Positions 22,861 through 27,919 of a DNA stretch of 34,621 nucleotides are shown here, piece by piece. Position numbers and translations under genes: made by a program. The first letter of the stretch is position 1. Every line of letters starts with the position of its first letter. The stretch covers positions 1 through 34,621 of IMG/VR virus record IMGVR_UViG_3300020470_001125. One strand, given 5' to 3'. A model generated the notes under the pieces. That model did not search any database, was not told the DNA's origin, and was given only the letters and a program-made list of their open reading frames with translations. The stretch is from a virus.

Positions 22861-23568
22861 ATGGCATTACCTAAGTTAAATGTACCTAGATACTCTTTGA
22901 ATCTTCCGTCAAATGGTGTCAAGGTAAAATATCGTCCATTCCTTGTGAAAGAAGAGAAAATGCTCCTCTTAGCAATGGAATCTGAAGATCAAGAGCAGAT
23001 GGCAGAGACTATTACTAACTTAATTGAAAGTTGTACTAATCTTACCAATGTAAAGGATCTAGCAACCTTTGATATTGAATATTTGTTTTTACAGATTCGT
23101 TCTAAGTCAGTGGGTGAAACCGTTGATGTTATGATGACATGCCCTGATGATGAGGAAACTCAGGTCAAGGTAAATATACCATTAGATCAGATTGAATGTG
23201 TAACTGATCCAAAACATACCAGTGAGTTGAAACTAACTCCTGAAGTTGGTTTGGTTATGAAATATCCAAGTATGGAGATGTTCATCAAGAATAATTTCTC
23301 TGAGGAGAATCAGGTTGAGAACATTTTTGAAATGGCTGCTGATTGTATCGTGCAGATTTTTGAAGGTGAGGAAGTTTATGAGGCAAAAGAATCTTCTAAG
23401 ACTGAGTTGATTGAGTTCATTGAACAGATGAATACTCAACAGTTTCAGCAGGTTCAAGAGTTCTTTGAAACTATGCCAAAATTAAAGTATGACGTTAAGT
23501 TTACTAACCCTAAGACTAAGAAAAAGCATACAGTAACACTTGAGGGACTAGCAGCTTTTTTCGGTTAG
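22861..23568 (+). CDS. gp26: Baseplate hub assembly protein gp26
   Basis: A 235-residue acidic protein of the T4 gp26 family (T4: about 208), involved in baseplate-hub assembly. It opens MALPKLNVPRYSLNLPSNG, then KVKYRPFLVKEEKMLLLAM, then the FDIEYLFLQIRSKSVGE block, all typical. The C-terminus reads FTNPKTKKKHTVTLEGLAAF and stops at TAG 23566. The slippery run T-TTT-TTC lies two codons before that stop, and a coding-looking frame continues in the -1 frame, so a second, longer product is likely. The next full gene is a tape-measure-like protein, the usual place for such frameshift pairs. Confidence 0.85.
   Translation: MALPKLNVPRYSLNLPSNGVKVKYRPFLVKEEKMLLLAMESEDQEQMAETITNLIESCTNLTNVKDLATFDIEYLFLQIRSKSVGETVDVMMTCPDDEETQVKVNIPLDQIECVTDPKHTSELKLTPEVGLVMKYPSMEMFIKNNFSEENQVENIFEMAADCIVQIFEGEEVYEAKESSKTELIEFIEQMNTQQFQQVQEFFETMPKLKYDVKFTNPKTKKKHTVTLEGLAAFFG
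23556..23562 (+). other. Candidate -1 programmed frameshift site T-TTT-TTC
   Basis: The heptamer lies in the zero frame as GCT TTT TTC GGT TAG and fits the X-XXY-YYZ rule. GAGGGA at 23542-23547 lies 8 bases upstream, like the internal Shine-Dalgarno sequence that stimulates dnaX frameshifting. Slipping back one base gives an extension of 63 codons that ends at 23753. Confidence 0.7.
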
Positions 23569-23618
23569 CCCTGCTTCATACGAATTTGAAAGTATATTAT
23601 GAGACCAATTTTGCATTA

Positions 23619-23753
23619 ATGCATCATCATAAATGGTCTCCTGAATATCTTGATAATATTATGCCTTGGGAGAAAGAGATCTATGTTAGTCTTCTGATAG
23701 AACATTTGAAGGAAGAAGAGAAACGACATAAAGAACAACAGGCAAAACGCTAA
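23619..23753 (+). CDS. Tail assembly chaperone extension (gp26 -1 frame)
   Basis: In the -1 frame relative to gp26 an ORF runs through the gp26 stop to TAA 23751. Its sequence reads RLALLHTNLKVYYETNFALM, then HHHKWSPEYLDNIMPWEKEI and a charged coiled C-terminus (HLKEEEKRHKEQQAKR). The only ATG is at 23619, which alone would give 44 residues with no ribosome site. The stretch before the ATG, YYETNFAL, also looks coding, so I think the real product is a gp26 fusion made by frameshifting at 23556-23562. The ATG lies within a hairpin. It ends directly at the start of the tape-measure-like gene (TAAATG). Confidence 0.6.
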   Translation: MHHHKWSPEYLDNIMPWEKEIYVSLLIEHLKEEEKRHKEQQAKR

Positions 23754-25937
23754 ATGGCATCATCCAAAGTCAAACCTTACAGAATAGTCGCATCGTCGTT
23801 TAGATCGCCGATAAAACTTTCTACTGCCAGATCACGTGGGATACGTATTTCTGCGGCAAAGGTTTGTATGTCAGTAAATCGTCTTGGTGCTGTTTTTGAA
23901 TCTGTTGGACACATTGCTGCTGACATGCGTGACCATTTAGATGGTCGCAAGGACATGATCCATGCAATGCATCAAGATCTTAAAGAGAGTCTTCATCTTA
24001 CAAAAGATAAAAAGGCAGAGGAAGAAGCTGAGGGCGGTGAACAAAAACAAGAGATCACTGGTGGTGCTGATGATGCCATCAAGAAACAAGATAAGAAGAA
24101 GGGTGGTATTTTTGAGTGGTTAGGTAAATTTTTAAAACCTTTTGAAAATGTAATTGCATGGATTACTAGAACTACACTTGTTCGTGGTCTATTGAAGTGG
24201 ATTGCAGATGAGGGGAATAGAGAGAAGTTAGTCAGTATAATTGAGACCCTAGGAAGGGTCGGTAAGTTCATAATGAAATGGGCACAATTTGCTATTGGTG
24301 GAATATTAGATGGTTTAGCAGGTATTTTTGGTGGAATAGGTAAGATAAAGAATGGTAAGTTAGGTGGTGTTTGGGATTTAATAAAAGGAGTGGGATCACT
24401 ACTTTTAGGTATAGTAGCACTTAAAGGATTAGGATACTTACTCAATCCGTTCTCCCTCATTAATGACATCATGAATTTGATGGACATGAGGCAGCAAGAA
24501 CATCGGAGAAATAATCAGAATCAAAATCAAAGGAGTAGGAATCGTAGGACAAGGACACAGAATAATACTAGAAGAAGGATTAATACTAGGAATACTTCAA
24601 AAGCAACGAGATTAAGATATCAGAGGAGATTTGGTAATCAAGCTGCTAAGACTAGGTTTGCTAAACAGATTAAAGGACCAGGTGGATTAGGTGGTAAGAC
24701 AGTTAAACCAGGTAGTCAGTTAATAAAAGGTCCAGTAGGCAAGACTGTTACTAGAATTGGTACTAAGTTCCTAGGCAAGGGTGCAGTTAAAGCAATTAAA
24801 GGTATATTTGGTAGAATTCCTATCATTGGTTCTCTTATAACAGTTGTTGCATCATTATTGGCAGGTGAACCATTAGGTAAGGCACTCTTTAGAGGATTAG
24901 GTGCTGCATTAGGTGGTGTTATTGGTTCATTTATACCTGTTCCAGTATTGGGTACTATGCTTGGTGAAGCTGTTGGTATATTTACAGCAGACTTACTTTA
25001 TGAAGGATTCATGGGTAAGGGATGGAAAGCTGCTGGTGCTAAGTTAAAAGAATCTTTAATGGGTCTTGTAACTGGTGCAGGTAAGATAGGTAAAGCAATC
25101 ATCACTTGGTTATTTGGTGGTGGATTAATGAATCTACTGAAGAAAGCGGGTACTGGTATTGCTGAGTTCTTTAAGAAAGGAACTAAGAGATTTGTAGATA
25201 ACTTCCCTAAACGTAAGTTCCCAACTGGTAACATTGGGACAATGATAACTGGCATCTTTGATAAGTTGAAGATGGGTTGGTTACTTAATCCAAAAGTTAT
25301 TCCAAGAACTAAGAAAGAATGGAAGACTTGGAAGAACCCTGCTGGTGTTGGTACAGAAAGTGTAAGGAGTATATTAGAGAACGAACTTGACTTTAGTATT
25401 CCTCAAATGTTTGGATCTGCATTCAAATTTGTTGGAATGAAGGGTCTTGTAGATGATGATGGTGAAGTTAAGGGTATACCTGCTTTAGATCAATTGTTCA
25501 ACCCCATCTTTATGGCTAAGCATATTGCTAGTTCATTCTTTGGTGGTGGTGAAGAAGCAAAAGCAGAACCAGGTGGTAATGTAACACCTCAACCTAAGAA
25601 GAATCTCTTAGGTAAGGTAATGCCTGATGAGTTCCAGAGTGAGGAATATCTTAAACATAGAGATGGATCCGATAGTAATTCTGAGGCTCTTGCTCATGCT
25701 GATGGTGCAGGACATGAAGATGTCTTCTCCAATTATGCTAATGCTCCTGCTGAGGAGGAATCAGTTAAAGATGTATCATCTCAAGCAGCACTTGATAGTG
25801 CAACTGCTGATGTGGAAGAATCTGGTAGTGGACCAGTTCCTGTCATGCTTCCAGTAAGTAAAACAGTGACTATAAATAGCCAAGGGAAGGTTCCTACGGT
25901 TATCTTTAAGAGAAAACTCGCCGCATATATTGAATGA
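23754..25937 (+). CDS. Tape-measure-like tail protein, paralogue 1
   Basis: A 727-residue protein placed where the tail tape measure is expected, after the gp26 chaperone pair. Its N-terminal part (1-85) is helical. Residues 115-240 hold hydrophobic amphipathic helices (GIFEWLGKFLKPF, GLLKWIADEGNREKL, GGILDGLAGIFGGIG). A very basic Arg/Asn/Gln segment lies at 249-280. Another hydrophobic Gly-rich part with membrane-like segments (IPIIGSLITVVASLLAG, FIPVPVLGTMLGEAVGIF) lies at about 355-420, and the tail is acidic. It is paralogous to the next gene. T4 gp29 is the functional counterpart by position, but the similarity is not certain. It overlaps the next gene by 4 bases. Confidence 0.65.
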   Translation: MASSKVKPYRIVASSFRSPIKLSTARSRGIRISAAKVCMSVNRLGAVFESVGHIAADMRDHLDGRKDMIHAMHQDLKESLHLTKDKKAEEEAEGGEQKQEITGGADDAIKKQDKKKGGIFEWLGKFLKPFENVIAWITRTTLVRGLLKWIADEGNREKLVSIIETLGRVGKFIMKWAQFAIGGILDGLAGIFGGIGKIKNGKLGGVWDLIKGVGSLLLGIVALKGLGYLLNPFSLINDIMNLMDMRQQEHRRNNQNQNQRSRNRRTRTQNNTRRRINTRNTSKATRLRYQRRFGNQAAKTRFAKQIKGPGGLGGKTVKPGSQLIKGPVGKTVTRIGTKFLGKGAVKAIKGIFGRIPIIGSLITVVASLLAGEPLGKALFRGLGAALGGVIGSFIPVPVLGTMLGEAVGIFTADLLYEGFMGKGWKAAGAKLKESLMGLVTGAGKIGKAIITWLFGGGLMNLLKKAGTGIAEFFKKGTKRFVDNFPKRKFPTGNIGTMITGIFDKLKMGWLLNPKVIPRTKKEWKTWKNPAGVGTESVRSILENELDFSIPQMFGSAFKFVGMKGLVDDDGEVKGIPALDQLFNPIFMAKHIASSFFGGGEEAKAEPGGNVTPQPKKNLLGKVMPDEFQSEEYLKHRDGSDSNSEALAHADGAGHEDVFSNYANAPAEEESVKDVSSQAALDSATADVEESGSGPVPVMLPVSKTVTINSQGKVPTVIFKRKLAAYIE

Positions 25938-27919
25938 AAAAGCAAAAAGACGGAAGTAGTACTAAAATAAGGTTTTACAAGTTTGTTAACCCTCGTACCT
26001 CTGTGATGACTGAGAGTGAGGGTGTAGTTGCTGGCGACATTATTGCTCAGAAGACAGTTAAAGGTATTAATAGTTTAGGTGCCACATTTAACAGTTTTGC
26101 TGTTATAATGAAGGAGATGAAAGAGTCCATGATAAATGCTCATGGTGCTCAGAATGAACTTATAGATGACTTAGCACAATCTGCATTAGAACCAGATCCT
26201 ACTGATAATTTAACCCCTAAGAAAAAGAAAAAGTCTGGTTTTCAAGATTTTATTAAACCTGTTGTAGCAGGATTCTTTGAATCTCTTGCTAAATTGGGTG
26301 GATGGTTGTTCAAAGCATTCATAGGTCGTGCTATACTTAAGTGGTTTGCAGATCCCAAAAACATTGAAAAAATAGAGAAAATCTGGAACGGAATGATGGC
26401 ATTCACGAAGTTCCTGATGAAATTTGTTGGAGGTGTAGTTGGCAACATGCTGGATGGCATTGCTAAGATGTTTGATCCGAACGCAAGTTGGTGGGAGAAG
26501 ATAAAAGGGTTTGGTCAATTTTTCGTTGCACTGGGGGCAGGATTACTTGCACTCAGGTGGTTAAGAAATCCGTTGAAATTAGCAAAGGACTTTATCTGGG
26601 TGCTTAAAACACTATACACAAATCTAGTTAAAGGTATGAAACGCATGAAAATGCGTAAATTTGGAGGAAGAGGAGGATTAGTTAAAGGACTTGTTATGAC
26701 TGGTGCTACTGCTCTTACAGCAATGGCAGTAACTAGTGCTATGAGTGGTGGTAGTGAAGAAACTCAAGAAGGTGGAGTACCTGAAGTCACTGCAAGAGGA
26801 GATAGAACTGACTTAGAAAAGCAACAATTTAATACGATGATGGAAGAGAAGGGATTCTCTAAAGGTGGATGGATCTCAGGTCCAATGTCAGGTTATCCTG
26901 TATCTTTAACTGGTAAGGGTATTGACTTTATTGGTCATGGAACTGAGTATGTTGCAACTAAAGCAGAAGGTGGTAAGGTTAACGCACAGAAATTTGCTGG
27001 TGGTGGATTTGTAGTACCATTTAACACTCCAGCAACTAAGTCTAATCCTGGTTTAACATCACAACGTATGTTAGAAGCAGGTGGTATGGGATTTGATCTG
27101 GGTGGTATATACAATACTAAGAATATGCCAAGTTTCTCTGAAGGTGGTCTGATTGAAGGAACTAATGAAGAGAAGTGGGCAAAGGTTAAAGGTATGGCAG
27201 AGAAAGCAGGTGCTAAGTATCCTAATGTAGTTGCTGCACAGTTTGCTTTAGAATCTGATTGGGGTCGTGCAGTAGGTGCTAAGAATAATTTCTTTGGTAT
27301 TAAAGCAACTCCAAATGAAGCATCTACTGTTTCTAAGACTACAGAGGTTATAGATGGTAAGTCAGTTAATACTGAGGCAGCATTTAAGAGTTTTTCATCA
27401 CCTCAAGCATCAATTGATCATCTAGTTACTCAATGGTATAAAGATTATAAAGGATATAAAGGTGTTAATAATGCTCAGAATGCTATGGCAGCAGCATCAA
27501 TGCTTAGTTCTGAGGGATATGCTACTGATCCTGCCTATGCTTCAAAATTACAGCAATTGATTTCTAGATATGGTAAGATAGATGCTGTTGCACCTGTAGT
27601 ACCAAGAGATAAAGGTAGTAATGCTGTTAATATAACTCCTGGTAATACAGAATCCTTAGTTTCACAACAAACTGCAACAACAGGAAATGCAAAGGTTGAA
27701 GCAGTCGCCGCTAAGAAAGCAACTGCGGATGCCACAGTAACAGCAGCAACTGCTATTGCTACTTCTGTATCTGCTAAATCATCTCAGGATGCTACTAATG
27801 CTGCTCTTGCGGCACAAGGTGAGGGAGGTAGTACAGTTATCGTTCCTATGAACGAATTACCAGAAATTATACAATTCCGACCTAAGTTCGGACTATTTGG
27901 AGCAAGCGATGTCGGTTAA
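25934..27919 (+). CDS. Tape-measure paralogue 2 with glucosaminidase domain
   Basis: A 661-residue protein with two parts. Residues 1-230 follow the preceding protein (LGATFNSFAVIMKEMKES, AILKWFADPKNIEKI, GNMLDGIAKMF). Residues 415-550 form a FlgJ-type N-acetylglucosaminidase domain. Glu440 in VVAAQFALESDWGRA is the likely catalytic acid, and KNNFFGIKA and FKSFSSPQASIDHLV follow as in the family. The join is a Gly-rich linker. Such a domain would cleave peptidoglycan during DNA injection. It overlaps the gp27 start by 11 bases. The last 100 residues are Ala/Thr-rich. Confidence 0.8.
   Translation: MKKQKDGSSTKIRFYKFVNPRTSVMTESEGVVAGDIIAQKTVKGINSLGATFNSFAVIMKEMKESMINAHGAQNELIDDLAQSALEPDPTDNLTPKKKKKSGFQDFIKPVVAGFFESLAKLGGWLFKAFIGRAILKWFADPKNIEKIEKIWNGMMAFTKFLMKFVGGVVGNMLDGIAKMFDPNASWWEKIKGFGQFFVALGAGLLALRWLRNPLKLAKDFIWVLKTLYTNLVKGMKRMKMRKFGGRGGLVKGLVMTGATALTAMAVTSAMSGGSEETQEGGVPEVTARGDRTDLEKQQFNTMMEEKGFSKGGWISGPMSGYPVSLTGKGIDFIGHGTEYVATKAEGGKVNAQKFAGGGFVVPFNTPATKSNPGLTSQRMLEAGGMGFDLGGIYNTKNMPSFSEGGLIEGTNEEKWAKVKGMAEKAGAKYPNVVAAQFALESDWGRAVGAKNNFFGIKATPNEASTVSKTTEVIDGKSVNTEAAFKSFSSPQASIDHLVTQWYKDYKGYKGVNNAQNAMAAASMLSSEGYATDPAYASKLQQLISRYGKIDAVAPVVPRDKGSNAVNITPGNTESLVSQQTATTGNAKVEAVAAKKATADATVTAATAIATSVSAKSSQDATNAALAAQGEGGSTVIVPMNELPEIIQFRPKFGLFGASDVG

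Follow-up and report, generated by a model that had tools for sequence, protein, structure and literature searches.

A conserved slippery heptamer at the end of gene 26 points to a gp26-gp51 fusion made by −1 frameshifting in T4-like phages

In the T4-like, cyanophage-type tail region studied here, gene 26 very probably encodes two tail assembly chaperones (TACs): gp26 itself as the short form (TAC-N, "G") and, by programmed −1 frameshifting at a slippery heptamer near its 3′ end, a 297-aa gp26-gp51 fusion as the long form (TAC-NC, "GT"). This reading draws on the layout of the genes, the conservation and frame of the heptamer, domain homology and a predicted fold, from which we infer the occurrence and efficiency of slippage, the role of a stimulator and the protein contacts. 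The analysed stretch of DNA (the window) is a viral record of 34,621 nt (34.6 kb), IMG/VR IMGVR_UViG_3300020470_001125.

All features of the site lie on the plus strand. Gene 26 (22861-23568) encodes a 235-aa protein in the zero frame that matches PF12322 (T4_baseplate, E 1.4e-73) and PHROG 150 (E 4.9e-83). Its 3′ end reads GAG GGA CTA GCA GCT TTT TTC GGT TAG, with the heptamer T TTT TTC, the putative −1 slip site, in zero-frame phase at 23556-23562 and the TAG stop (23566-23568) one codon past it. The sequence GAGGGA (23542-23547), a Shine-Dalgarno-like (SD-like) candidate stimulator, is found 8 nt 5′ of the heptamer. From 23544 onward the −1 frame has no stop until a TAA (23751-23753) beyond the gp26 stop, giving 63 residues after the slip; this extension (23562-23753 including the stop) is a T-like gp51 domain. 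The TAA directly abuts the ATG of the next ORF (TAAATG, 23751-23756), which encodes 727 aa (23754-25937). An earlier note, made from this DNA alone, had described the heptamer, the GAGGGA and the open −1 frame, and all three are present as it said. Its fusion of about 298 residues comes to 297 aa when computed, with the expected junction peptide ...LEGLAAFFRLALLHT...

To follow the heptamer among relatives, junctions were gathered from IMG/VR by gp26 peptides, from IMG/VR by the −1 ORF, and from GenBank. In total we obtained 169 junctions, from which 78 remained after dereplication at 90% nucleotide identity; 40 of these 78 had been picked without reference to the slip site. All 169 loci, and thus all 78 dereplicated ones, carried T TTT TTC or T TTT TTT in the gp26 frame with gp51 in the −1 frame, although these counts are not independent events because the loci are related. 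Among the dereplicated set, TTTTTTC was found 61 times and TTTTTTT 17 times. Because the −1 ORF query includes the slip codons, the loci retrieved by internal gp26 peptides alone were counted separately, and the heptamer was present in 79/79 of those with complete ends. The combination of heptamer and −1 gp51 persisted down to about 30% gp26 identity.

As a bare 7-mer the heptamer is not rare (14 copies in the window against 9.9 expected), and by itself it does not exceed chance; the weight rests on its frame, position and conservation. The codon preceding the Phe-Phe pair was always NNT in the 78 dereplicated loci, even though the encoded residue varies among S, D, N and A, and the first Phe was TTT in every case. 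Over the last 30 codons of gp26, identity was clearly above expectation only at these two positions, the codon before the pair (0.84 vs 0.35) and the first Phe (1.00 vs 0.58), which are codons 232 and 233. The earlier note had proposed as a check that the heptamer should be conserved while surrounding third positions vary, and this is the pattern found: the heptamer is invariant and the third positions of its neighbours are variable. Moreover, the zero-frame stop wanders from 0 to 8 codons past the slip site among relatives, whereas the heptamer stays fixed. These results confirm the observation, which lies far beyond what chance would produce.

The −1 frame itself behaves as coding sequence. 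Its domain matches PHROG 634, "baseplate hub assembly catalyst" (gp51), with an E of 4.9e-29. A further match is to the C-terminus of PHROG 150, so that this family contains fused members. The −1 ORF was uninterrupted in 78/78 dereplicated relatives, with a length of 55-68 aa, and conserved residues lie on both sides of the internal ATG (23619). As the earlier note had suspected, the peptide ahead of this ATG looks coding, with L9 conserved in 77/78, N16 in 69/78 and F17 in 75/78; it was also right that no Shine-Dalgarno sequence precedes the ATG. However, this is not the only in-frame ATG as stated there, as a second one is found at 23661 (MPWEKE). In 19/78 relatives a −1 stop lies at most 9 nt upstream of the heptamer, so that in these the whole domain can be read only by entry at the slip site. 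The two features that mark programmed −1 frameshifting, a phased X XXY YYZ heptamer and a −1 frame that is open and under selection, were thus both found.

Alternatively, the gp51 domain might be made as an independent small protein, beginning at ATG 23619 or TTG 23586 or through reinitiation by ribosomes that have terminated on gp26; GenBank annotates it as a separate protein for Syn33 (138 nt), P-SSM2, HTVC008M and others. An in-frame ATG that leaves at least 35 aa exists in 73/78 relatives, and in Cygsa01 and P-SSM2-like phages an ATG stands at or near the gp26 stop. The first of these facts counts against frameshifting, as does Pseudomonas phage Cygsa01 (locus L178, ~1262-1482), which keeps a −1 gp51 after gene 26 with a TAATG start and no heptamer; it was the only such relative seen and is a possible switch from frameshifting to reinitiation. 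Nevertheless, we regard a separate gp51 as very unlikely. A well-placed start of its own, which the earlier note had named as an outcome that would speak against its proposal, is missing from most homologues: an ATG with an SD-like sequence was found in only 10/78, and several loci (L099, L123 and others) lack any ATG yielding 35 aa. Independent translation also does not explain the conserved residues ahead of the ATG, the invariant in-frame heptamer, the synonymous constraint at the site or the fusion of T4 gp51 to a gp26-like domain.

RNA polymerase slippage on the T run, rather than slippage of the ribosome, is less probable still. Every case does have a run of 6-9 T, but polymerase slippage usually needs runs longer than six T, and in 61/78 there are just six T before a C. 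It also needs no phasing, whereas what is conserved is a frame-phased T TTT TTC together with an SD-like element, as suits a ribosome. Least credible of all is that the Phe-Phe pair is kept for the sake of the protein, in the gp26 C-terminal ...LEGLxxFF, with the heptamer as a by-product. F233 and F234 are indeed invariant in the alignment, and T4 gp26 retains the pair (GLKEFFELL) without a heptamer. However, codon choice goes beyond what the amino acids require: synonymous codon resampling at the site gave the heptamer in 35 of 78 on average and 49 at most (2000 draws), against 78/78 observed, and other Phe-Phe pairs in the same genes formed it in only 6/94. T4, which has no −1 gp51 domain after gene 26, encodes its pair as TTC TTT. 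Ribosomal −1 frameshifting is the reading that we retain for the site.

We also looked for elements that could stimulate the shift. In dnaX an SD stimulator lies upstream of the slip site, and the GAGGG found here resembles it. An SD-like 4-mer precedes the heptamer in 68/78 dereplicated relatives, and the upstream Glu codon, which creates GAGGG, is GAG in 49/62 (79%) compared to 409/1700 (24%) elsewhere in the same genes. A search across the relatives for a downstream stem-loop or pseudoknot gave no conserved structure (the consensus fold was empty and the z of the folded segment was −0.91), which counts against frameshifting. For about 33 close marine relatives, the 37-nt segment spanning the slip site (23541-23577) averaged −11.3 kcal/mol vs −4.0 kcal/mol elsewhere in gene 26. 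In the marine cyanophage subset the slip site lies within an unusually stable local hairpin, where GAGGG could base-pair with a CCCUC farther downstream, itself similar to an anti-SD sequence; no covariation was found in this hairpin. It is conceivable, if improbable, that the hairpin of marine cyanophages masks the SD-like stimulator until a ribosome opens it, in which case frameshifting and, via the TAA-ATG, translation of the next tail gene would depend on ribosome traffic. Because the next ORF starts right at the −1 stop, ribosomes that have shifted might go on to translate it by coupling. Many relatives likewise place the following ATG no more than about 10 nt from that stop.

The gp26 and gp51 halves of the fusion were folded separately. 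The AF2 model of gp26 (pLDDT 86.7) had as its best PDB match the HK97 tail assembly chaperone gp13 (2OB9), with a Foldseek probability of 0.92 and a weak E of 0.3; the superposition gave a VIA Z of 7.6 and an rmsd of 3.8 over 82 aligned residues, where Z < 8 can reflect a common arrangement. The next matches, 3fgx and 3klu, were two small Bacillus proteins. This best match among solved structures covers residues 1-84 of the gp26 model; gp26 is about twice as long as HK97 gp13 and its C-terminal part lies outside the match. Taken alone, the predicted likeness is moderate evidence, but it fits the gene order and the listing of T4 gp26 and gp51 as hub assembly chaperones (PMC3004832). A fold search with the gp51 domain among viral models gave no match with E < 0.001, and sequence searches of solved structures with gp26 and gp51 gave chance matches only.

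Immediately upstream of gene 26 we found a protein of the tail tube family (PHROG 45). The 727-aa ORF downstream matches PHROG 790/10479 and carries no tape-measure annotation in PHROGs; its position makes it a candidate tape-measure or tail structural protein. It is paralogous to the following ORF (25934-27919) over the first ~240 residues (26% identity, E 3e-16), and either of the two could be the tape measure. The ORF at 25934-27919 carries a glucosaminidase domain (PF01832, E 6.5e-21) and may be a virion-borne peptidoglycan hydrolase. Elsewhere in the region, the ORF at 21386-21856 matches both the head closure PHROG 218 and a TnsA-like endonuclease fold (PF08722, E 2.6e-21), and its 5′ end is overlapped by an antisense ORF.

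Under the proposed mechanism, most ribosomes on gene 26 would terminate at the TAG at 23566 and release the short chaperone gp26, comparable to lambda gpG. With tRNAs on TTT TTC, a smaller share would move back by one base at T TTT TTC, probably assisted by pairing of GAGGGA with 16S rRNA. These ribosomes would then read CGG TTA GCC... in the −1 frame and terminate at the TAA at 23751, yielding a small amount of the 297-aa fusion, comparable to lambda gpGT. By analogy with G/GT, gp26 might coat the tape-measure protein, while the gp51 tail of the rarer fusion might recruit tube or hub proteins. The earlier suggestion of a tail assembly chaperone pair with a −1 frameshift is thus supported by the conservation of the heptamer, the survey of start sites and the predicted likeness of gp26 to the HK97 chaperone.

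When searching other T4-like phages, T TTT TTN followed by a −1 gp51 was also found in Aeh1, the KVP40-type V09, Aeromonas 65.2, Stenotrophomonas Mendera, Acidovorax ACP17, Variovorax V45v66, Agrobacterium OLIVR6, Rhizobium IC12, the freshwater BUCT-ZZ01, P-SSM2 and HTVC008M. Variant heptamers with a −1 gp51 occur in Sinorhizobium phiM9 (TTTTTTG) and Pseudoalteromonas XG4 (TTTTTTA). Judged from these genomes, the putative slip site appears to be general among T4-like phages outside T4's own branch, being found in almost every relative checked. The gp51 domain is intact in the −1 frame yet unannotated in Aeh1 (locus L163, 4205-4384), Aeromonas 65.2 (L175) and ACP17 (L166), and a joined gene was missing from all 15 annotated records of this type that were inspected. 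Probably gp51 has been mis-started or omitted across hundreds of records. Sullivan et al. 2010 described cyanophage gp51 as ~20% of its normal length and gp51 as missing in Aeh1, with cyanophage and vibriophage gp51 being without the first ~200 residues (PMC3037559). The short gp51 and its "absence" from Aeh1 would both follow if the frameshift went unrecognised: the N-terminal part would be gp26, joined by the shift, and the Aeh1 domain is intact in the −1 frame.

The arrangement resembles that of lambda G/GT. In both, two overlapping frames are joined by a −1 shift (putative here) close to the 3′ end of the first gene, the pair stands after the tail tube gene and before the tape-measure gene (here presumed), and the second-frame stop abuts or overlaps the next start. 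The lambda slippery heptamer is G GGA AAG, unlike the T TTT TTC found here, and an HMM test of gp26 and gp51 against lambda G and T revealed no sequence similarity. The lambda frameshift is established (Levin 1993; Xu 2004, 2013, 2014, as summarised in PMC5009743), and a 2016 review considered G/GT frameshifting to be conserved in long-tailed phages except T4 (PMC5009743). A −1 frameshift with the motif GTTTTT has furthermore been described for the TAC of Vandenendeviridae and Andersonviridae (PMC12846349). As described, they share with the present case a myovirus TAC-N whose gene has a T-rich slippery run close to the 3′ end, a C-terminal domain encoded in the −1 frame, and a tape measure (presumed here) farther downstream.

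Frameshifting of TACs is a known device in tailed phages, and its use in T4-like phages has reportedly been described already. Vladimirov et al. 2022 are cited in PMC12846349 for −1 signals of the polyT type in TAC-N genes of T4-like phages, and by PRFect (PMC10885494) for the statement that, instead of frameshifting, some of these phages have one short gene and one long, fused gene. Going by these citations, that paper may already contain some or all of what is presented here. The earlier note had called the device notable for a T4-like phage; the device is very probably present, but the description was too strong, as the site is general outside T4's branch and T4-like TACs are already credited to the 2022 paper.

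T4 itself is homologous but differs in how the two forms are made. PF12322 covers both T4 gp26 and residues 1-201 of T4 gp51, and residues 147-246 of gp51 match PHROG 634, the family of the −1 frame domain. The short and long forms of T4 come from two paralogous genes, 26 and 51, which are divergent, as in Acinetobacter 133, and no slippery heptamer follows gene 26, where the Phe-Phe pair is coded TTC TTT. By its domain content, T4 gp51 is a ready-made fusion of a gp26-like domain with the same C-terminal domain, the architecture that the frameshift would produce. Read from this distribution, T4 looks like a derived case in which duplication supplied a paralogous fused gene beside the short one in place of the frameshift; the slip site has been retained in cyanophages, pelagiphages, KVP40- and Aeh1-like phages and the T4-like phages of rhizobia.
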